A stretch of 64,000 nt of DNA from assembly GCA_025354565.1 (NCBI GenBank), contig JANXMQ010000111.1:1-64000 (forward strand), given 5' to 3'. Below, in pieces: positions 2,937-24,042 of this stretch (positions are counted from its first letter, which is position 1; the number at the start of each line of letters is the position of its first letter). This DNA comes from Akkermansiaceae bacterium (lineage in GTDB: Bacteria; Verrucomicrobiota; Verrucomicrobiia; Verrucomicrobiales; Akkermansiaceae). Position numbers and translations under genes: made by a program. Below the pieces are notes generated by a model. The model was not told where the DNA came from and made no database searches. It worked only from the letters and a program-made list of their open reading frames with translations.

Positions 2937-3018
2937 ATAAGGAGCGGCGACCTTATTGTCGCCTCTTCATCTTCGTCCCCGCCACGGAAGAAGGGACAAT
3001 AAGGTCCCTGCTCCTTAT
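2937..3018. repeat. Long REP-like hairpin, copy 1
   Basis: An 82-bp imperfect palindrome. The left arm ATAAGGAGCGGCGACCTTAT is matched by the right arm ATAAGGTCCCTGCTCCTTAT, and the inner arms pair GTCGCCTCTTC with GAAGAAGGGAC. Both outer ends read ATAAGGAG inward. Copies 2-4 lie at 4697, 5433 and 8797. Copy 1 is the left edge of the island that separates DUF1552 from DUF1592. Confidence 0.9.
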
Positions 3019-3025
3019 TCATACG

Positions 3026-3114
3026 ACACCTGTCGCTCCACCAGCTTGATCTCATCCTCCGTCAGTCTATAGAGTCATCCACGAAGCGGTCCAATAAAGT
3101 TTGCTCGTGCGCGA
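3026..3114 (-). pseudogene. 3' remnant of a second type IIG restriction-modification gene
   Basis: This stretch is a diverged copy of the last part of the intact RM gene (compare 5549-5665). Both share CTCCACCAGCTTGATCTC, then TCCGT-AGTC-TAGAG, and GGTTTGCTCGTGCG against GTTTGCTCGTGCG. An internal deletion of about 30 bp and single-base changes break the frame. Read on the minus strand its end encodes LTEDEIKLVERQVSYE, against LTEEEIKLVECA in the intact gene, and its stop TAA is supplied by hairpin copy 1. Its position beside a hairpin is the same as that of the intact gene beside copy 3. Confidence 0.7.
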
Positions 3115-3159
3115 ATGCATTACTTGCTTTATGAGTCAATTGGACATTTGAATTCAACA

Positions 3160-3318
3160 ATGTCATCGTCATTCCCCGCAGAACATCCAGAGTGGATCGA
3201 TCTACTGCAAAAACGTGATGCGTTTCACTCGCAAATTGCCGCTGTCATGACCGAGCTTCATGCTTTGTCCGACTCCCAAGCAGTGGTAACCAGCTTCTCG
3301 ACCACTAACACCCCATGA
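3160..3318 (+). CDS. Small hypothetical protein coupled to the HIRAN gene
   Basis: A 52-residue frame starting MSSSFPAEHPEWIDLLQKRD ends in the overlap ATGA with the start of the HIRAN gene, so the two would be translationally coupled. An in-frame ATG lies earlier at 3115; I prefer 3160 because the remnant of the RM gene extends to about 3114. No domain is recognised. The segment looks mostly helical. Moderate to low confidence that it is expressed. Confidence 0.4.
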   Translation: MSSSFPAEHPEWIDLLQKRDAFHSQIAAVMTELHALSDSQAVVTSFSTTNTP

Positions 3319-3719
3319 GCGATTTCGCCCTCACCGCCATCGAACAGCATCAGCTCGCGCTGCTCCACGCCCACTTGCAACGCGGCGGAGGTCTGTCCGC
3401 GCCCTTCGCCAAGGAAATTTTTCTCATCGAAACCCACGTCGCCGGCACCTCGCATGTCCCGATCCGGGAAATCGAAGCCACCCTTACCGCTGGCGATTCC
3501 CTCGTCCTGCGCCGTGAATCAGACAACCTCCACGACCCCCTCGCCATCCTCATCCTCACCGGGAATGGCGACAGACTCGGTTACGTCCCGCGCGACCGGA
3601 ATGAAATCCTCGCCCGCCTGATGGACGCTGGGAAATTTCTCATCGCCCGCCTCGAATCCAAGGAATGGCAGGGCGACTGGCTCCGCGTCGCCGCACGGGT
3701 TTTCCTGCGGGACGTGTGA
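3315..3719 (+). CDS. HIRAN domain protein
   Basis: The 134-residue protein is mostly a HIRAN domain (about residues 35-130). Visible family features are FLIETHVAGTSHV at the start of the barrel, GDSLVLRRE followed by N-x-HDPLAI, and RLGYVPRDRNEILARLMDAG. HIRAN domains bind DNA, notably 3' ends in the HLTF/Rad5 helicases. Bacterial stand-alone forms are found near DNA-processing and defence genes, but their role is unsettled. The N-terminal 35 residues are helical and unassigned. The gene sits in an island with a type IIG RM enzyme and a RAYT transposase, which fits a DNA-related role (inference). Start at ATG 3315 overlaps the stop of the small frame before it. Confidence 0.75.
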   Translation: MSDFALTAIEQHQLALLHAHLQRGGGLSAPFAKEIFLIETHVAGTSHVPIREIEATLTAGDSLVLRRESDNLHDPLAILILTGNGDRLGYVPRDRNEILARLMDAGKFLIARLESKEWQGDWLRVAARVFLRDV

Positions 3720-3722
3720 GCG

Positions 3723-3779
3723 TCAGTCGGGAAACCATTTGGCCGCTTCTTCAACGGTGATTTGCTCAGGTTGACTCAT
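3723..3779 (-). CDS. Possible 18-residue peptide or gene tail
   Basis: The frame starts at ATG 3779 just after the stop of the next gene upstream (3796) and reads MSQPEQITVEEAAKWFPD. It looks like real protein sequence but is very short and without a clear ribosome binding site, so it may be a leftover of a longer gene. Confidence 0.2.
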   Translation of the reverse strand: MSQPEQITVEEAAKWFPD

Positions 3780-3795
3780 GATCTGCTTATATTGT

Positions 3796-4248
3796 TCACC
3801 CATCAAAGTCCGCGGTAATGTCCACCCATTGCCAGCCGTCGATCAACGGAAGTGAGTTTGGATTCGCGCCAAAGGCAAGAAATGCTGCGGTCGCAGTCGC
3901 CAGATCCGGAAAGTACCCGGAAATCCAATTGGCCCGGTCCGGGTCCGTTTTCCCGATGGAGCCTTCCTCATCCGGGCGCATTAGACGGTAGTGGCGGAAT
4001 TCATCGCCTGTCCCGGTAAATAGCCTGATTTCCAGACAATATGTGGCGTCCTCTGCCGCGCGTGCCTGGCAATAGTTAGTATATTCGTCTTCGGACTCGG
4101 GAGCCTCCAGAATCACATAGGGATTTTCCAAATCCGAACGAAGCGCTTCCAACGCGGCCACCACCTGGGCCGCGCCGGGCGACTCCGTCCGGAATTCGCC
4201 TGGAATTTGGCCTTCTATGAGTGTCCAGTCTTTAAATTTTTCGTTCAT
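3796..4248 (-). CDS. Hypothetical acidic protein
   Basis: 150 residues, acidic, with no signal peptide and no membrane segment. I recognise no domain with confidence. The alternation of strand-like stretches (NPYVILEA, YCLEIRLFTGTGDEFRHYRL, DGWQWVDITADF) suggests an alpha/beta fold of the kind seen in immunity or SMI1-like proteins, but no diagnostic motif is present. It lies between the HIRAN gene and the DUF3024 gene, 35 bases downstream of the latter on the same strand, so the two may share a transcript. Its presence between hairpin repeats suggests it is cargo of the island. Confidence 0.6.
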   Translation of the reverse strand: MNEKFKDWTLIEGQIPGEFRTESPGAAQVVAALEALRSDLENPYVILEAPESEDEYTNYCQARAAEDATYCLEIRLFTGTGDEFRHYRLMRPDEEGSIGKTDPDRANWISGYFPDLATATAAFLAFGANPNSLPLIDGWQWVDITADFDG

Positions 4249-8906: not shown

Positions 8907-11261
8907 TCAATCGTCACCCCGGCGCTTTTGAAACGGTGCGCTTTCGATGATGCCTTGGATGAGTTCCCGCAGCGAGCCACCATTTTTTTCCATGCGTGTG
9001 GTGAGAATGTTGATGGTGGTGGCGTCATAGATTTCCACGCCGCGGCCGATGGCGTAGGTGAGCAATTTCTCGGCCAAGCACCGATGAAAGTCCTGCTTGC
9101 GCTGGCCGGCGAGGAGGGTCTTGAGCGTGGCGACATCGGCGAATTTCTCTCCGGTGAGCAATTTCCCGGATGCGTCGATCGCTTGGCCGCGGTCCTGAGT
9201 GCGGAATTGGCCGAGCGCGTTGAAATTTTCCAGGCCCAGGCCGATCGGGTCCATGCGGGCATGGCAGGCACGGCATTCGGGTTTTTTGCGGTGAATCTCC
9301 ATCATCTCGCGCTGGGTTGGGTTCGGCTTGCCGGCGGCGGCGTCCTCCAATTTAGGCACCCCCGGCGGAGGCGGCGGAGGCGGTGAGCCGAGCAAATTAT
9401 TCAATACATAGAGTCCGCGCTTCACGGCGGAGGTCCGGGTGGGATTGGAGGTGACGATCAGGAAAGTCCCTTGGGTCAGCAGTCCGCCGCGTTCGGGATG
9501 GTCGGTGAGATCGACTGGCTTCATGGCCTCGCCCGTGACGCCGGCGATGCCGTAAAATTTCGCCAAGCGCTCGTTGAGAAAACTATAGCGCGCGGAAATC
9601 AACTCCACCGCCGGGCGATTGTTACGGAGTACGAAGTCGAAGAGCATTTCCGTTTCCCGCTGCATGTCCTGGCGCAGACGAGGATCGAAAATTTGCGCGG
9701 CTTCGCGGTTTGTCGCCTTGCCGAGGATGCTCTTCGCGCTCATGGCCACGGTCTCGACATCACGGGCCTGGAGCCACTGGCCGACGAAATTCTCGACGAG
9801 CCGCTGCGAGCGCGGGTCCTTGAGCATCCGATCCACTTGGGCAGTTAGATTGGTGCGCAGCTTGTTGTTGAAGGCGAGACTGAGCAAATCATCGTCCGGA
9901 ACCGAGCCCCAGATGAAGAACGATAACCGGGCGGCGAGCGAATACTCGTCGAGCGGGACAATCCGCGCAGGATTGTTAGGCTCCGGCTGGATTTCCACGC
10001 GGAACAGAAAACGCGGCGAGGCGAGACAGGTGCCGATGGCTTGCTTGATGCCGTCCTGGAAGGATTTTCCCGGCCGCATGGAAACCTCCTTCACGATAAC
10101 CATGAGGCGGTCGATGGTTTGCTCGTCGAGTGGCTTGCGAAAGGCGCGGCTGACAAAACTACGCATGATCTTGCGGGCATAGCGGTCCTTACCGGTTTCC
10201 TCCTCCGGTGCCGGGCCGTCCACGAATATCATGCGGTAGCCCTTCGCGTATTCCTGCTGCGAGCCACCGAGCGGACCCTGCACAATCACCCGCTGAATTG
10301 TTAGGAAAAGCTCCTCCTCCGCAGGCAATGGACGTTGGGCAGGTGAAAGGTTGATCTCGATCCGCTGGCGGCCTTTTTTCAGCGGCACCTTGCCTGTTAG
10401 CTCGATCACCCGGCGTTGGTCCCAGCCGAGCGTGACGCCGCCGACCTTTTTGCCACCGGCGGAAACCTCAAGCCGCGCCTCATCCGTGGTGGCCTCGGAC
10501 GCGCCGTGAATCGCATACTCGACCTTCACCTGATAGTCGCCGTCCCAACGGATGTCCTGATCCATATTGATCTGCTGGCTTTTCGCGAACGGCAGCCAGG
10601 ATGCGTCAGCCTGCGGATCACTAACAGCCTTGAAGCGCTCCCCCTCGATGTCCACCCGCGGCACCTGCGCCGCCGCACCATCCGGCAGGGCAAGTGCCAC
10701 CACCTCGTCCGCCGCCGCGATGTATTTCTCCATCAGCAGCGGGGAAATCGAGAGCACGTCGCCGATGTTGTCGAAGCCGTAGCCAGTGTCGTCCGCCGGG
10801 AACACCTCGCGGGTGTCGTATTCCACGCCTAGCAGATCGAAGACCGCGTTCTGGTATTCCTTGCGGTTCAGCCGGCGGATGGTGACGCGGCCGGGGTCCG
10901 GGTTGTTAGGATCGAGTTTGAAAACGTCCCGCTCGATCCAGGCGAGCAGTTTTTTTTGCTCGGGTGTGGTCGGCTGGTCCTCGTCGGACGGCGGCATAAT
11001 CTGGCTGCGGAGATTGCGCCAGACGGGGAGCCAATGTTTGCGGTCGTTGAGATGGGTGGACAGATCCGTGAATTTATCCAAGGTGAATTTCCCCTTGGAC
11101 TCGCCATCGCCATGACAGTGATAACAATATTTTTCCAGCAGCGGAACGATTTCGTGCTGATAGGTCAGCGCGGGATCGGCGACGGCGCTGCTGTAAATCC
11201 CCACAAACATCCCGGCGATGGTGAGGCTTACCACGTCGGCACGGAGGAAATGGGCAGTCAC
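8907..11261 (-). CDS. DUF1592 family planctomycete-type cytochrome c protein
   Basis: 784 residues, exported by an N-terminal signal. It begins with a cytochrome c-type heme motif, CYHCHGDGESKGKF (about residues 46-60), followed by the DUF1587, DUF1595, DUF1592, DUF1588 and DUF1585 blocks. Recognisable are GRVTIRRLNRKEYQNAVFDL, SRAFRKPL, ERGGLLTQGTFL, CRACHARMDPIGLGLENF (a second CxxCH) and a C-terminal LTYAIGRGVE. Such proteins are thought to be periplasmic redox proteins that act with DUF1552 partners in polymer catabolism; the reaction is unknown. The gene is 15 bases downstream of the esterase gene, so the two form an operon. Its DUF1552 partner now lies beyond a 6-kb island. Confidence 0.9.
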   Translation of the reverse strand: MTAHFLRADVVSLTIAGMFVGIYSSAVADPALTYQHEIVPLLEKYCYHCHGDGESKGKFTLDKFTDLSTHLNDRKHWLPVWRNLRSQIMPPSDEDQPTTPEQKKLLAWIERDVFKLDPNNPDPGRVTIRRLNRKEYQNAVFDLLGVEYDTREVFPADDTGYGFDNIGDVLSISPLLMEKYIAAADEVVALALPDGAAAQVPRVDIEGERFKAVSDPQADASWLPFAKSQQINMDQDIRWDGDYQVKVEYAIHGASEATTDEARLEVSAGGKKVGGVTLGWDQRRVIELTGKVPLKKGRQRIEINLSPAQRPLPAEEELFLTIQRVIVQGPLGGSQQEYAKGYRMIFVDGPAPEEETGKDRYARKIMRSFVSRAFRKPLDEQTIDRLMVIVKEVSMRPGKSFQDGIKQAIGTCLASPRFLFRVEIQPEPNNPARIVPLDEYSLAARLSFFIWGSVPDDDLLSLAFNNKLRTNLTAQVDRMLKDPRSQRLVENFVGQWLQARDVETVAMSAKSILGKATNREAAQIFDPRLRQDMQRETEMLFDFVLRNNRPAVELISARYSFLNERLAKFYGIAGVTGEAMKPVDLTDHPERGGLLTQGTFLIVTSNPTRTSAVKRGLYVLNNLLGSPPPPPPPGVPKLEDAAAGKPNPTQREMMEIHRKKPECRACHARMDPIGLGLENFNALGQFRTQDRGQAIDASGKLLTGEKFADVATLKTLLAGQRKQDFHRCLAEKLLTYAIGRGVEIYDATTINILTTRMEKNGGSLRELIQGIIESAPFQKRRGDD

Positions 11262-11276
11262 GGAGAAGGCTGAATT

Positions 11277-12239
11277 TTATTGAATTGGATAGCCGTGCCA
11301 AAGCCATTCGAGGGCGGCAGGCAAGGTTTGGCGGGTGACGCGGCCATCGGTGTGGCCGGCCTTTTTTGCGAAGACATAGCGGTAGTCATAGCCCTTCGCC
11401 TTGAGCGCGGCGGCCATGCGCTGGTTGGCCATCACCCAGTTGTGCAATGAGGCTTCATCGCGGTCGTGACCGTTGTCATTCTCACTCACATGCAACCAGA
11501 TGCGGAGTGGCTTTTTCACGCTGCGCTTGATGAGATTTTCATGATACTCCCAAGCTCCGTGTGGCGTCTTGGGGTCCACGGGAAATTGTTGGTTCACGTA
11601 AGTCCCGGAGTAGGTTAGAACGCGCCGATAGAGTTCCGGGTGGAACCACGCCATGGTGAATGCCGCCGCGCCGCCGGAACTGCCGCCCATCGTCGCACGG
11701 CCTTCGGGGTTTTTGGTGAAGGTGATCTGATAGTCCTTGCTGATTTTCGGCAGGACTTCCTTTTCGATGAATTTCGCGTAGGTGTCCGAGACCGTGTCAT
11801 ACTCAAGGCCGCGCTCGCTGCCGAGCGAATCGCCGCCGCCAGAGTTGATCATGATGGCGATCATGACGGGCAGGCGTTTCTGGTGGATCAGGTTATCGAG
11901 CACATGCGGCAGCACGCCCCGGTAGCCGAGGCCGTCCTGGGCGACGATGAAGGGCGCTTCCTGGCCGGGCTTGTATTGCACCGGGATATACACCGCGACC
12001 TTGCGTTGGTAGGGAACCTCGCCGGACTCGGTTTTCGAAATGCCGGGGTAAATTTTGCTTTCATGCGAGTCCATCGTGAACTCGACGATCTTGCCCTGCG
12101 GCACGTCGGGCAGAGCCTTCGTCTCCGGCGCATCCGCATACTCCGGGCCGATGGCGAACTCGGTTTCCTCCGCCGGACAGCGGGCTGGAAGCAGGGGCAC
12201 AAGGCAAGCGCAGATAACGAGACCGGGCGGAATTTTCAT
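11277..12239 (-). CDS. Exported alpha/beta-hydrolase esterase (esterase D/enterochelin esterase-like)
   Basis: 320 residues with a signal peptide (LVICACLVPLLPARCPAEE). The body is an alpha/beta hydrolase of the esterase D type: VAVYIPVQYKPG, then MIAIMINSGGG, the nucleophile elbow GGSSGGAAAF, and a late His in KKAGHTDGR. Relatives in Verrucomicrobiota are annotated as esterases or carbohydrate esterase CE1-like enzymes and cut acyl or feruloyl esters from polysaccharides; the substrate here is unknown. It leads the operon with the DUF1592 cytochrome (15 bases between them) and is divergent from pyc. Confidence 0.85.
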   Translation of the reverse strand: MKIPPGLVICACLVPLLPARCPAEETEFAIGPEYADAPETKALPDVPQGKIVEFTMDSHESKIYPGISKTESGEVPYQRKVAVYIPVQYKPGQEAPFIVAQDGLGYRGVLPHVLDNLIHQKRLPVMIAIMINSGGGDSLGSERGLEYDTVSDTYAKFIEKEVLPKISKDYQITFTKNPEGRATMGGSSGGAAAFTMAWFHPELYRRVLTYSGTYVNQQFPVDPKTPHGAWEYHENLIKRSVKKPLRIWLHVSENDNGHDRDEASLHNWVMANQRMAAALKAKGYDYRYVFAKKAGHTDGRVTRQTLPAALEWLWHGYPIQ

Positions 12240-15979: not shown

Positions 15980-17869
15980 ATGCACCGCAGTTTCTCCCCC
16001 ACTCCATGGCTTTGCACTCCGGCGCTTGTCGCGGGCTTGCTCACCGCTTGTTCGTCCCCCACCGGCCCGCCCCGCGCGGATGCTGCGGGGTGGAACAACG
16101 CGACCCTACGCAGGACCCCGCTGCCGGATTTCATGCCAGATCCCTACGAGCCCGTGAACCGCGCGATGTGGGCGGCGAACAAGGGCATCCTCGTCGGCGT
16201 GATGGAACCCAGCGGTAAAGTTTATCGCACCGTGGTACCCAAGCCAGTCCGTGGTTCGATCAATGATTTCACCCGTAACATCATCTATCCAGGCCGCGTG
16301 GTGAATAACATGTTACAAGGCCGATGGGCCGGTGCGGGCGATGAAACTCTGCGCTTCATCACCAACACCACCGTGGGTGGCCTTGGGTTTTTCGACGTGG
16401 CCAGCAAGTGGAACATCCCTAAGTCCGAGGCGGATTTCGGTCAGACTTTTGGCAAATGGGGCTGGCAGCCGCATTCCTATGTGGTCCTGCCGTTTTTCGG
16501 CCCGAGTGATGACCGTCATGCCATCGGCCTAGCCGCTGATGAGTTCGCCGAGCCATGGAATTATAAATATCCATACACCCTGGCTTCTTACGGCACGACC
16601 TACAATCAGGTGACGGACAAAACTGCGGACGCTCTCCGGCTCAATCGCGTCGAGTCGGATTCCTATTCCTTGGTCAAATACGCGTGGACCTTTGGCAGCA
16701 TGGATCAGCAGCCGGACTGGCAACCGAATGGCCGACCCGACATCGCGACTTTGCAAACGCTCGGAGTCACCCGGTTTGCCTGTCAGGATCCGGAATTCCC
16801 CAGCAACGGACAGGAAATCAGCGTCCGCATTCCCAGCACCGGGCGAAACTTGAAATTCAATTACTGGCTACAAAAAAACCCCGCCCCGCTGGTCTATATT
16901 TCACCTGGCCTCAGTTCGCATCGGCTTTCCATGCAGACTCTGATTGTTGCTGAAAACCTCTATCTCAACGGTTTTTCAGTGGTTACCACCACCAGCGTGT
17001 TTCACCCGGAATTCATGGAAAATGCCTCCACCACCGCGCTCCCGATCTATCCGCCGGTGGACAGCCGAGATCTGTTAGTCGCGCTCACCGCCGCAGATCA
17101 CGCGCTGACAACCAAGTATCCCGGCAGGCTCGGCAAGCGTGCACTCGTCGGCTGCTCGATGGGCGGTTTTCTCACACTCCGCCTCGCCGCCTACGAAAAA
17201 TCCGCACCGCCAGAATTACTTCGCTTCGACCGCTACGTCGCCATTGATGCACCCGTGGATCTCATCCATGCAGCACGCCAAGTGGATGCCTTCCAGAACG
17301 CCCCCATGGCCTGGCCCGCTGCGAAACGCCAAGCCCTCGTGAACAACACCCTGCACAAGGCGACCCTGAGCGGAGCCCTGACATCACCTACCAACGCCGC
17401 GCCGCCATTCAGTGGAATCGAGTCAAAATACCTGATCGGCCTCACCTTCCGCGTCACGTTGCGGGACATCATTTTCAGCAGCCAGATGAGAAACAACATG
17501 GGCGTGATTCAAACTCCGCTGTCCACATGGCACCGGGAATCCGCCTATCAGGAAATCATGAATTATTCCTACAAAGACTATTTCTTCAAACTGGCCGTGC
17601 CATACTATCAGAAACAAGGACTGACCCTCGCGGATGTGACCCGCGAGGGCAATCTCAGGTCCTACGGCGACAAGCTACACGCCCAGCCCAAGCTCCGCCT
17701 GCTGGCCAATCGCAATGATTTCCTGCTCCCCGCCAAGGATCTCGCATGGCTGAAATCCACGTTTCCCGCCCCGCGCCTAACGGTTTTCCCTGATGGTGGA
17801 CACCTCGGAAATCTCAATGCCCCCGCCGTGCAAAACGCGATCCTCACGTCGCTTTCCGGCTTGAAATGA
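15980..17869 (+). CDS. MlaA-type lipoprotein fused to an alpha/beta hydrolase
   Basis: 629 residues. A lipoprotein signal ends at LTAC, so the protein is probably anchored in the outer membrane. Residues of about 50-250 are MlaA/VacJ: DPYEPVNRAMW, DFTRNIIYPGRVVNNMLQG, RFITNTTVGGLGFFDVA, FGQTFGKWGWQPHSY and VLPFFGPS. MlaA removes phospholipids from the outer leaflet. From about residue 285 an alpha/beta hydrolase follows with a full triad: Ser393 in GCSMGGF, Asp580 in ANRNDFL and His608 in DGGHLG. Normal MlaA has about 230-280 residues, so the fusion is unusual. A lipid esterase acting on lipids delivered by MlaA is an attractive inference. The frame is continuous. Confidence 0.88.
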   Translation: MHRSFSPTPWLCTPALVAGLLTACSSPTGPPRADAAGWNNATLRRTPLPDFMPDPYEPVNRAMWAANKGILVGVMEPSGKVYRTVVPKPVRGSINDFTRNIIYPGRVVNNMLQGRWAGAGDETLRFITNTTVGGLGFFDVASKWNIPKSEADFGQTFGKWGWQPHSYVVLPFFGPSDDRHAIGLAADEFAEPWNYKYPYTLASYGTTYNQVTDKTADALRLNRVESDSYSLVKYAWTFGSMDQQPDWQPNGRPDIATLQTLGVTRFACQDPEFPSNGQEISVRIPSTGRNLKFNYWLQKNPAPLVYISPGLSSHRLSMQTLIVAENLYLNGFSVVTTTSVFHPEFMENASTTALPIYPPVDSRDLLVALTAADHALTTKYPGRLGKRALVGCSMGGFLTLRLAAYEKSAPPELLRFDRYVAIDAPVDLIHAARQVDAFQNAPMAWPAAKRQALVNNTLHKATLSGALTSPTNAAPPFSGIESKYLIGLTFRVTLRDIIFSSQMRNNMGVIQTPLSTWHRESAYQEIMNYSYKDYFFKLAVPYYQKQGLTLADVTREGNLRSYGDKLHAQPKLRLLANRNDFLLPAKDLAWLKSTFPAPRLTVFPDGGHLGNLNAPAVQNAILTSLSGLK

Positions 17870-20993: not shown

Positions 20994-22118
20994 GTGACCA
21001 CCAGCCCTCCAACCTTCGTCGATTTCTTTGCTGGCAGCGGCCTTGTCACCCAAGGAGCCAAGCACGCCTGCACCCCCGTTTGGTCGAACGACATCTGCTC
21101 CAAAAAGGCCGCCAGTTACATCGCCAATCACGGCGACGATCATTTTCACCTCGGTTCCATCGAGCAGGTCAGCGGAGCCACCATCCCCCACGGCGACATC
21201 GTCTGGGCCAGCTTCCCCTGCCAGGACCTCTCCCTCGCTGGCAAAATGGGCGGCCTTGCGGCCTCCCGCAGCGGCATGTTCTGGGAATGGCTCAGGGTTT
21301 TGGACGAAATGCCTGTCAAGCCGACTGTCATTGCCTTGGAAAATGTCGTCGGTCTGCTCTCCGCCAATGGCGGCGAGGATTTCCGTCTGCTCCACCAGGC
21401 CCTGCGCGAGCGTTCCTACAAGGTCGGCCCCATGCTTCTCGACGCCCGGCTCTGGGTCCCCCAATCCCGCCCCCGCGTCTTCGTCGTCGCCGTCCTCGAT
21501 TCCATCGACACCACCGCCCTCGAAGACCACGGCCCGAACTGGCTTCACCCCGAGGTAGTCCTTAAAGCCATCGCCCCGCTCGACGACGCTGTCTTCTGGT
21601 CCATGCCGCGTCCCAAAAAACGACCCAAGACCTTGTCCGAGATCATCGATTGGGAGGCTCCGGTTTTCGATGACCAGCGGAAACGCGAACTAATGTCGCT
21701 GATCGCCCCAAACCATAAAGAGCTGCTCAACAGGCTTCCTCTTCAGCAACGAGCTGTCTTTCCCGGCTATCGACGGACCCGCAAAGGCAAACAGACCCTC
21801 GAACTTCGCTTTGATAACACCTCCGGCTGCCTCCGCACCGCCGAGGGCGGCAGTAGCCGCCAATTTCTCATCCTTCACGATCAAGGCAGATGGGATGCCC
21901 GTCTCATCACCACCCGCGAAGCCGCCCGCCTGATGGGAGCTCCGGACAACTTCCGCCTTTCCCAATCTTATAACGAAGCCTACAGCGCCATGGGGGACGC
22001 CGTCGTCGTCCCCGTTGTGAAACACCTTGTAGAGCATCTGCTTTATCCCCTTGCAAGGCAGAATGGGAAAGCCATCCCAAATGGCAAAATTGGAAGCCTT
22101 CAAAGGCTTTTGTTGTGA
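20994..22118 (+). CDS. DNA (cytosine-5) methyltransferase of a type II RM system
   Basis: 374 residues with the C5 methylase motifs in order: FVDFFAGSGLVTQG (SAM binding, motif I), catalytic Cys76 in ASFPCQDLSLAGK (motif IV), Glu116 in ALENVVGLL (motif VI), QSRPRVFVV (motif VIII), a variable target recognition region, then a C-terminal motif X with YNEAYSAMGDAV. It protects host sites from the nuclease encoded downstream. I take GTG 20994 as start because no in-frame ATG lies near motif I; this is the weak point of the call. The stop codon overlaps the C-box that controls the next two genes. No GTTAG/CTAAC pentamer occurs in it, unlike the surrounding genome. Confidence 0.92.
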   Translation: MTTSPPTFVDFFAGSGLVTQGAKHACTPVWSNDICSKKAASYIANHGDDHFHLGSIEQVSGATIPHGDIVWASFPCQDLSLAGKMGGLAASRSGMFWEWLRVLDEMPVKPTVIALENVVGLLSANGGEDFRLLHQALRERSYKVGPMLLDARLWVPQSRPRVFVVAVLDSIDTTALEDHGPNWLHPEVVLKAIAPLDDAVFWSMPRPKKRPKTLSEIIDWEAPVFDDQRKRELMSLIAPNHKELLNRLPLQQRAVFPGYRRTRKGKQTLELRFDNTSGCLRTAEGGSSRQFLILHDQGRWDARLITTREAARLMGAPDNFRLSQSYNEAYSAMGDAVVVPVVKHLVEHLLYPLARQNGKAIPNGKIGSLQRLLL

Positions 22119-22143
22119 CTTAAAGTCCGTGGACTGCAAGACG
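22117..22143 (+). promoter_or_regulatory. C-box operator of the RM controller protein
   Basis: Left half-site GACTTAAAGTC, spacer CGTG and right half-site GACTGCAAGACG form the two-operator C-box with the central GTCCGTGGAC typical of controller proteins such as those of PvuII and AhdI. It lies 27 bases before the controller gene and overlaps the methylase stop codon. The left operator is more symmetric than the right, as expected for early activation and late repression. Confidence 0.8.
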
Positions 22144-22170
22144 TCAAGAATGTGATGCTTCACTCCAGAA

Positions 22171-22401
22171 ATGGATGAAGCCCTGCTCCTATCGAATTTT
22201 GGTAATTGCGTGAGAAATTCGAGGCTCGCCCTCGGTCTTTCCCAAGAAAAGCTCGCCTTTGATTGCGGTTTGGATCGCACCTACATCAGCAGTGTCGAGA
22301 GAGGAAAGCGCAACGTCAGCCTGATCAATATTTACAGGCTTGCCGGAGCGCTCGGCATTCCAGCCACGGAACTTCTCCCAGCAAAGGGAGGTTCCAAGTG
22401 A
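22171..22401 (+). CDS. XRE-family controller (C) protein of the RM system
   Basis: 76 residues, almost all a helix-turn-helix domain: SRLALGLSQEKLAFDCGLD, then RTYISSVERGKRNVSL and a C-terminal helix GIPATELL. Size, position and the adjacent C-box identify it as a controller protein. Such proteins activate their own gene and the endonuclease gene, delaying cutting until the new host is methylated. Its stop overlaps the GTG start of the nuclease gene by four bases (GTGA), so the two are translationally coupled. Confidence 0.9.
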   Translation: MDEALLLSNFGNCVRNSRLALGLSQEKLAFDCGLDRTYISSVERGKRNVSLINIYRLAGALGIPATELLPAKGGSK

Positions 22402-22943
22402 AGAGCCTCCATTATCGCGCCGCCTTTGATTTCTACAAAACGCACATCAATCGTTCCGATTTCTTCGCACTCCTCAAAGAGCACAATTTGAAGACGAGCG
22501 GCTCCGTCCCGTCAATCACTTGGGAGCTGTTCGGTTCCATTCTGACGGGGCAGAAAGGTAAGGGTGGCTACGGTGCTGACCTCGAAGGCATTGAAATCAA
22601 ATCTGCCATTGCAGGGAGCTCATTCGAATATCAATACCACCTCAACACTGGCCTTGATAAATTGAAAGAAGATCAGGTAGTCGATCATTTCTTCTGCTCC
22701 TATTCCGCTGACTACCAGTCATTTCAAGTCTATTTCGCGGACGGAAAATCGTTGTCGCCATTTTTCAGCAACTGGATTCCCCAATACCTTAAAAACTACA
22801 ACAAGGCCGAAAATGCCACTTCAGTGGAAGCCAGTGAACGTCGACAGCGTTTCCGACGATCAATACCCTTCGGTTGGGTATCAAAAAACGCGCGACTGGT
22901 CATGGAGGTAAAAGATGGAAAGCTTGTTCTTCCCCACCTCTAA
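22398..22943 (+). CDS. Type II restriction endonuclease, PD-(D/E)xK
   Basis: 181 residues starting at a GTG that overlaps the controller stop. The segment GYGADLEGIEIKSA gives Asp61, Glu66 and Lys68, a good D-x4-E-x-K active site. The flanking ITWELFGSILTGQKGKGG resembles the front of several short type II nucleases. It presumably cuts the site methylated by the upstream enzyme. I cannot name the specificity. The frame is complete and shows no damage. Confidence comes mainly from the M-C-R gene order and the C-box. Confidence 0.82.
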   Translation: MKSLHYRAAFDFYKTHINRSDFFALLKEHNLKTSGSVPSITWELFGSILTGQKGKGGYGADLEGIEIKSAIAGSSFEYQYHLNTGLDKLKEDQVVDHFFCSYSADYQSFQVYFADGKSLSPFFSNWIPQYLKNYNKAENATSVEASERRQRFRRSIPFGWVSKNARLVMEVKDGKLVLPHL

Positions 22944-22951
22944 GTTTGCCT

Positions 22952-22980
22952 CGTTGGGGTCGTTGGGGTCTCGTTGGGGT
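22952..22980 (+). repeat. Short tandem repeat before the REP copy
   Basis: CGTTGGGGT occurs three times (22952, 22961, 22972) and runs into the inverted REP copy. The GGGGT of the last unit is part of the REP consensus, so these look like partial REP duplications. Confidence 0.7.
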
Positions 22981-23000
22981 CAGTCCCCGCAGTCTCACAA
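22974..23000 (-). repeat. REP element of the second family, copy 2 (inverted)
   Basis: TTGGGGTCAGTCCCCGCAGT followed by CTCACAA, the exact reverse complement of the copy at 24036-24062. It sits 40 bases before the transposase start, so the two copies are inverted flanks of that gene. Confidence 0.88.
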
Positions 23001-23040
23001 AATGATTGACGTGTGATGATGTGAAACGCATTGTACCCCC

Positions 23041-24042
23041 ATGGCTAGGGCGCTACGTTTCGAATATCCTGGGGCGATTTATCATGTGATGGCTCGCGGG
23101 GACGGGGGGAAGACGGTTTTTGAAAACAAGGACGATTGCGAGGTGTTTCTTCATCGTCTCGGAGAAGCCTGCGGCAGTTGCGGGTGGCGGGTGCATGCCT
23201 GGGTGTTGATGGGCAACCACTTTCACCTGCTCCTGGAAACACCCCAAGCGAATCTGGTGGCGGGCATGAAATGGTTGCTGGGTGTTTTCAGCCAAGGCTG
23301 GAATCGAGCTCGCGGCCGCAAGGGGCACGTGTTCCAAGGTCGCTACAAATCGGTGCCGGTGAGCGGGAGCGACACGGATCGATATTATTTCCGCACTTTG
23401 GCGGATTACATCCATCTCAATCCCGCCCGCGCAGGGCTGGCCGGTGGACGGCACGGCAAACTGGCTGACTACCGTTGGAGCAGTCTGGCGTCGTATGCGC
23501 GGGGCACCGGGCCGGAATGGCTGGAGATGGGCCGCGTGCTGCAATCCTTCGAGCTGGCCAAAGACGGCAGGGGCAGGCGCGCCTATGTGGCATGGCTGGA
23601 GGCGAGAGCGGAAGCGGGAGGGGAAATCGGCGAGCAGGCCCAGGCTGCCATGAAGCGTGGGTGGTATTTGGGAGAAGACAGTTTCAAGGATCAGTTGCTA
23701 GGGCTGATGGAGAAATTGAAAGGCGGAAAAAGAACAAGACCGCGCAAAGGCACGGCGGAGAGTTGGCGGGATCACGGCGAGAGGGATGCCGAGGACTTGA
23801 TCTCACGTTATGCACCGGAGTTGGATTTGCCCACTGTCGGCAAGGAACTGAAGACCTTGCGCAAGGGGGATGAGCGCAAGGCGCTGCTGGCGGCTTTGCT
23901 GGTTCGGAAAACGACGGTGAGCCGGGAGTGGTTGGGGCAACGCTTGGGAATGGGGCATCCGGGATCGGTCAGCCGTATGCTGGGTGAGGTGAAAAGAAAT
24001 CGGAAACTGGCAAAACGGCTCAATGAACTCGATAACTTGTGA
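23041..24042 (+). CDS. Y1_Tnp (RAYT-like) transposase with C-terminal extension
   Basis: 333 residues. The N-terminal half is a Y1 transposase: RFEYPGAIYHVMARG at the start, HUH motif GNHFHLLLE (His60, His62), candidate catalytic Tyr102 in FQGRYKSV, and DYIHLNPARAGL. The C-terminal half (about 190-333) is charged and helical with VSREWLGQRLGMGHPGSVS, probably a DNA-binding helix-turn-helix. It is longer than and only distantly related to the RAYT at 4776. It is flanked by inverted copies of the second REP family. The frame is intact. Its last 20 bases contain the start codon of miaA. Confidence 0.88.
   Translation: MARALRFEYPGAIYHVMARGDGGKTVFENKDDCEVFLHRLGEACGSCGWRVHAWVLMGNHFHLLLETPQANLVAGMKWLLGVFSQGWNRARGRKGHVFQGRYKSVPVSGSDTDRYYFRTLADYIHLNPARAGLAGGRHGKLADYRWSSLASYARGTGPEWLEMGRVLQSFELAKDGRGRRAYVAWLEARAEAGGEIGEQAQAAMKRGWYLGEDSFKDQLLGLMEKLKGGKRTRPRKGTAESWRDHGERDAEDLISRYAPELDLPTVGKELKTLRKGDERKALLAALLVRKTTVSREWLGQRLGMGHPGSVSRMLGEVKRNRKLAKRLNELDNL

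Follow-up and report, generated by a model that had tools for sequence, protein, structure and literature searches.

A natural fusion of an MlaA domain with an MlaY-like alpha/beta hydrolase in Verrucomicrobiota

The window analysed here is a stretch of 64,000 nucleotides from an Akkermansiaceae bacterium of the phylum Verrucomicrobiota (GenBank assembly GCA_025354565.1, contig JANXMQ010000111.1, positions 1 to 64,000). On its plus strand, at 15980..17869, lies a frame of 629 codons which is open throughout and in which an MlaA (MlaZ-like) domain is followed by an MlaY-like alpha/beta hydrolase; homologous fusions exist elsewhere. An initial annotation had claimed an MlaA lipoprotein and an alpha/beta hydrolase in one chain, and this was borne out by the single frame and by Pfam, which recognised both domains. 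The data below demonstrate that the fusion is real, widespread and conserved; the most fitting description of its product is a fused protein of the MlaZ-MlaY type.

The protein begins with MHRSFSPTPWLCTPALVAGLLTACSSP. By eye, residues 1-23 (15980..16048) were read as a signal peptide which ends at a lipobox, LTA followed by Cys24 (16049..16051), the likely lipidated N-terminus. The serine at +2 after this cysteine is compatible with outer-membrane sorting by the rule of the Lol pathway. The lipobox is not kept in all relatives, some of which have sites resembling those of signal peptidase I. The MlaA domain comprises residues 54-237 (16139..16690; PF04333, E 1.4e-53) and matches profile positions 3-189 of 195; the solved MlaA chains 8i8r (E 3e-16) and 5nuo (E 7e-15), of the E. 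coli type, match this part of the protein. Between the domain limits is a linker, residues 238-261 (16691..16762). The hydrolase domain, residues 262-629 (16763..17866), is supported by Pfam, BLASTP to MlaY and AlphaFold2 (AF2). The Pfam families Abhydrolase_1/_6 matched weakly at about residues 363-615 (E about 1e-4); when scanned by itself, the C-terminal half reached 27.8 bits, above the Abhydrolase_6 cut-off. The predicted nucleophile Ser393 (17156..17158) sits in a G-x-S-x-G motif (GCSMGG), the predicted acid of the triad is Asp580 (17717..17719, in NRNDFLL) and the predicted base His608 (17801..17803, in GGHLG). All three had been placed correctly in the initial annotation. In the AF2 model a mostly helical insertion separates core strands at about residues 422-565 (17243..17674; model residues 399-542); it is lid-like and may act as a lid.

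Two neighbouring genes might have been joined spuriously, and indeed some relatives have MlaA and hydrolase as separate adjacent genes. The fusion was searched for in other genomes, as the initial annotation had proposed. When 84,980 species genomes were scanned with exact peptide seeds, 20 loci emerged, all labelled Verrucomicrobiota and most of them spanning both domains at 34-68% identity. Because the scan requires exact short peptides it is silent on absence in other phyla. In an alignment of the window protein with 16 of the loci (A1) both domains aligned over their whole length, and each half has many invariant columns. Full-length fusions at such identities, free of stops, in many independent assemblies refute a hidden frameshift, a sequencing-error join and a chimeric assembly alike; that the fused gene is an artefact of sequencing is hardly conceivable.

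The catalytic residues were also conserved. In 56 of 56 hydrolases D361, G391, S393, G395, Y534, D580, G606, H608 and G610 are invariant (numbering of the window protein); the set takes in ten loci in which MlaA and hydrolase are separate adjacent genes. A structure was predicted by AF2 from a 17-sequence alignment, i.e. the window protein and the 16 loci; four loci were left out because of an unclear frame (L014), a partial sequence (L018), a broken frame (L019) or Ns (L011). The hydrolase domain was modelled with confidence (predicted local distance difference test, pLDDT, mostly 80-97). The serine (model residue 370) directly follows a strand (361-369), the aspartate (model 557) comes after strand 549-554 and the histidine (model 585) after strand 577-580. 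With the mostly helical insertion in between, this is the standard Ser-Asp-His order of an alpha/beta hydrolase. A Foldseek search of the PDB returned many alpha/beta hydrolases with E values of 1e-7 to 1e-9. Thus, the fold claimed in the initial annotation was recovered in the predicted structure.

To which family does the hydrolase belong? A tblastn search of 72,556 plasmid records with the hydrolase yielded only six, two from Skermanella, one from Fusobacterium and three from Pseudomonas aeruginosa, at about 25-33% identity. An MlaA-family gene adjoins the hydrolase in each of the four plasmid regions inspected: in both Skermanella records and in the inspected P. aeruginosa record the next gene is annotated as 'VacJ family lipoprotein', and in the unannotated Fusobacterium record the next open reading frame (ORF) is MlaA by Pfam. 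The P. aeruginosa homologue carries Ser187, Asp388 and His415 at exactly the positions given for MlaY, PA3238, in PMC11977310, and its neighbour fits MlaZ, PA3239. Ser393, Asp580 and His608 of the window protein align with these three residues. In BLASTP the window protein matched MlaY with 25% identity over 352 columns (E 2e-24) and MlaZ with E 4e-22, and a profile of Verrucomicrobiota hydrolases detected MlaY at E 3e-73. By homology, then, the hydrolase is a member of the P. aeruginosa MlaY family. In phage records no relative was found.

Next, 388 Verrucomicrobiota genomes were surveyed with Pfam profiles and a hydrolase profile built from a second alignment (A2). MlaE (PF02405) is present in 361 of them and is common even where MlaA is lacking. 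MlaA (PF04333) was detected in 153 genomes, MlaC (PF05494) in 47 and the hydrolase in 106, the latter across 13 families of the phylum. Every hydrolase genome has MlaA (106/106). Hydrolase and MlaC occur together in a single genome (G173). For this exclusion Fisher's test gave p about 1e-33, a figure which overstates independence as the genomes are related. Of the two MlaA genes in this exceptional genome one is fused and the other is short, the latter lying among the MlaC-linked proteins of the MlaA tree. The MlaA open frames of the phylum fall into two broad size classes, about 250-460 and about 600-850 amino acids. From MlaA genomes that were candidates for the hydrolase 40 loci were retrieved, of which G173 contributed one and genomes lacking MlaC the other 39; 38 loci have complete context. 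All 38 contain the hydrolase, 28 within a fused ORF and ten as the adjacent next gene in the order MlaA, hydrolase. In the ten split loci both proteins start with apparent signal peptides, as judged by eye; hence the separate hydrolases are likely to be exported. From the near-complete exclusion of MlaC, a hydrolase-coupled MlaA appears to stand in for MlaC-dependent transport in this phylum. A generic esterase unrelated to Mla was rejected, because the hydrolase is confined to genomes with MlaA and its distant relatives also adjoin MlaA.

MlaA was seen without MlaC or hydrolase in three genomes. The contig of G269 ends within the locus, and the MlaA of this genome clusters with those of the fusions. 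In G312 MlaA stands alone. A third arrangement was seen in G272 (L106, 6138-9360), where a lone MlaA directly precedes a long ORF which at its start resembles a permease of the RND/MMPL type. In genus g2 of the window's own family the listed genomes have neither MlaA nor hydrolase, most of them with MlaE, and the one-contig genome G255 of the window's own genus also lacks both. This suggests secondary loss. One hydrolase of alignment A2 matches the VPDSG-CTERM sorting motif.

The initial annotation had noted that no mlaB-F genes are nearby, and none were found in the neighbourhood examined. MlaC (PF05494) was not found in the window's own genome. Elsewhere it has one MlaE, on contig 200, plus MCE/MlaD proteins. 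One of these, a single-MCE protein, is encoded near the MlaE gene; on contig 162, at 2978-4003 (L114-L116), a 568-codon frame has three MCE (MlaD) matches and is PqiB-like. PldA/OMPLA (PF02253) was found neither in this genome nor in any hydrolase genome of the survey. The missing PldA and MlaC would fit a self-contained route; as PldA is seldom found and occurs mostly in a cluster within a single family, its absence is a weak argument.

In the MlaA-domain tree, rooted by a single E. coli sequence, all hydrolase-linked proteins of Verrucomicrobiota, fused and split, formed one group (97/70) apart from the MlaC-linked proteins, and this group was one side of a branch in 96% of the bootstrap trees. 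The split pairs fall inside one of its two main branches, which implies at least one additional fusion or fission.

Probably the window protein is a single-chain counterpart of P. aeruginosa MlaZ-MlaY, which extracts a lipid and cuts it on the spot without MlaC. We infer its membrane location, phospholipid substrate, direct hand-over, transport direction and product fate as follows. The MlaA domain would reside in the outer membrane, held by the lipidated Cys24 and by the MlaA fold itself. Glycerophospholipids which have strayed into the outer leaflet would pass through the MlaA channel towards the periplasm. The hydrolase would be tethered at the periplasmic exit of the channel, where MlaC docks in E. 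coli; its C-terminal position should bring it near this place, judging from the E. coli complex. There the triad Ser393-Asp580-His608 would cut an acyl ester, and the lipid would be degraded in place, not carried by MlaC to the inner membrane.

Several results weigh against equating the window protein with MlaZ-MlaY. The hydrolase and MlaY share only about 25% identity. For the MlaA part the AF2 model, built from 17 sequences, was poor, much of it with pLDDT below 50. The gene order, MlaA then hydrolase, is reversed compared to MlaYZ. Further, the MlaZ proteins of Proteobacteria and Fusobacteria formed a clade of their own (100/97) which in the best tree is not sister to the Verrucomicrobiota hydrolase-linked group, and forcing both hydrolase-linked groups together was borderline rejected (p-AU 0.0495). 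Tree separation and reversed gene order hint at two separate pairings of the same families, and the pairing may thus have arisen separately, with different detail of function. A wider reading can be offered tentatively, with about as much to be said against it as for it: in much of Verrucomicrobiota a single protein that extracts and destroys stray lipids would have taken the place of their MlaC-dependent return, and the MlaY family would have been coupled to MlaA at least twice independently. In Proteobacteria and Fusobacteria the genes would have been paired in the order hydrolase-MlaA and stayed separate; in Verrucomicrobiota MlaA would have come first, and the genes would later have fused.

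Other functions of the same chain have to be weighed against extraction and cutting. Some serine alpha/beta hydrolases catalyse acyl transfer. The protein could then be a lipid remodeller which moves an acyl chain from the extracted phospholipid to an acceptor other than water, and the Foldseek matches do include a deacetylcephalosporin C acetyltransferase, at rank 49. Since hydrolases make up most of the fold matches, the precedent MlaY is one too and no acceptor-binding feature was identified, we consider an acyltransferase very improbable. Somewhat less remote, still improbable, is a role of MlaA mainly as an outer-membrane anchor for a hydrolase which acts on substrates that do not come through the channel, such as acylated proteins, esters in the periplasm or lipids from the environment. 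In favour of this, alpha/beta hydrolases are a versatile group, and the matches in Pfam and NCBIfam lack specificity. On the other hand, the MlaA half is well conserved across the fusions, with many invariant columns, beyond what anchoring would demand; in several lineages a separate hydrolase of the same family, apparently exported, is paired with MlaA; and the P. aeruginosa homologue is genetically tied to the removal of outer-leaflet lipids (PMC11977310, PMC11131202).

A more serious competitor, though itself rather unlikely, is that the product still goes to an MCE (MlaFED-like) system. The fusion would then add a cutting step ahead of a carrier-free Mla route instead of fully replacing Mla transport, which is compatible with extraction and cutting by the window protein as far as the cutting step. 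MlaE is kept in the window's genome and in most hydrolase genomes. In G288 (L110) the fused gene adjoins an MlaE-ATPase-MlaD cluster on the opposite strand, and in G326 (L109) the fused gene and an MlaE match are about 4 kb apart on one contig. Yet at least seven hydrolase genomes, some of them 94-97% complete, have no detectable MlaE. As MlaE is also common without MlaA, its link to the fusion is loose.

The gene neighbourhood was also considered as a clue to function. Pyruvate-carboxylase, polysaccharide-deacetylase and ffh neighbours are kept in close relatives only, so that no functional partner was found in this way. Upstream, on the minus strand at 8907-12239, the window encodes a Planctomycete-type cytochrome/PSD multidomain protein and a putative esterase (PF00756). 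At 20994-24042 a C-5 cytosine DNA methylase (PF00145) is followed by an ORF of 226 amino acids and an IS200-like (Y1_Tnp) transposase gene. The 226-residue product has no Pfam match and might be a restriction partner of the methylase.

What is new here? The initial annotation had presented extraction and cutting of a lipid by a single protein as a new variation of lipid asymmetry maintenance. In view of the MlaY homology this is the best-supported reading. As a principle it is not new, because Guest et al. (2023, PNAS 120:e2302546120, as cited in PMC11977310 and PMC11131202) had already proposed extraction followed by degradation for MlaYZ, a system of two proteins. In the excerpts of the MlaYZ literature covered, to which the original paper of Guest et al. 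does not belong, no fusion of the MlaY-MlaZ type is mentioned. As far as this literature goes, the natural fusion and the either-MlaC-or-hydrolase pattern across a phylum are the new parts. So far, genetic work in a single species had led to the proposal that an MlaA channel and an MlaY lipase share the same lipid; their natural fusion strongly supports it. Should the protein restore the barrier with neither MlaC nor an ABC transporter present, it would be a one-protein tool to study lipid passage through MlaA and its direction. The survey further suggests a general rule for the phylum, by which MlaA has either a carrier (MlaC) or an enzyme (MlaY-like) as its partner and hardly ever the two together. 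Degradation at the outer membrane makes sense only for a lipid which leaves the outer leaflet; therefore, the split provides a clean contrast for the long-standing debate on retrograde Mla transport.

How does the fusion compare with known systems? In P. aeruginosa the lipase MlaY is located in the periplasm, and its gene adjoins that of MlaZ, an MlaA paralogue (PMC11977310, PMC11131202). MlaZ is proposed to take stray phospholipids from the outer leaflet and to pass them to MlaY for degradation (PMC11131202, PMC12569750). The window protein shares with MlaYZ the two families, the triad and the coupling of an MlaA-family protein to a hydrolase. It differs in being one chain in the order MlaA-hydrolase, whereas MlaYZ consists of two genes in the order hydrolase-MlaA, and MlaZ and the window-type MlaA domains lie in different branches of the tree. 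Moreover, MlaYZ coexists with canonical MlaA and MlaC in P. aeruginosa, whereas the Verrucomicrobiota fusion usually occurs without MlaC.

With PldA the fusion would share the outcome, destruction of outer-leaflet phospholipid, and E. coli lacking PldA is reportedly rescued by MlaY together with MlaZ (PMC11977310). The enzymes themselves are unrelated, an outer-membrane beta-barrel in the case of PldA and an alpha/beta hydrolase in the window protein.

The initial annotation had stated that MlaA normally works alone. This does not hold for E. coli, where MlaA associates with OmpC/F and passes lipid on to MlaC (PMC10719372). The MlaA domain is what the window protein has in common with this canonical system (MlaA-OmpC, MlaC, MlaFEDB). 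In place of the periplasmic carrier MlaC, the window protein has a hydrolase coupled to MlaA, in a genome without MlaC. We also considered that the fusion replaces an MlaC-recruiting MlaA tail of the E. coli type (PMC10719372, PMC10245069). As a trait that would set the fusions apart this found no support, since most MlaC-linked MlaA proteins of the phylum also end soon after the last helix.

Finally, the carrier-free Mla system of Veillonella parvula has no MlaC either (PMC10665443). There, MlaA is absent and a long MlaD forms a transenvelope bridge; a beta-barrel form of MlaD is reported to be absent from the PVC group (PMC10665443). In contrast to Veillonella, the window genome keeps MlaA, fused to a hydrolase.
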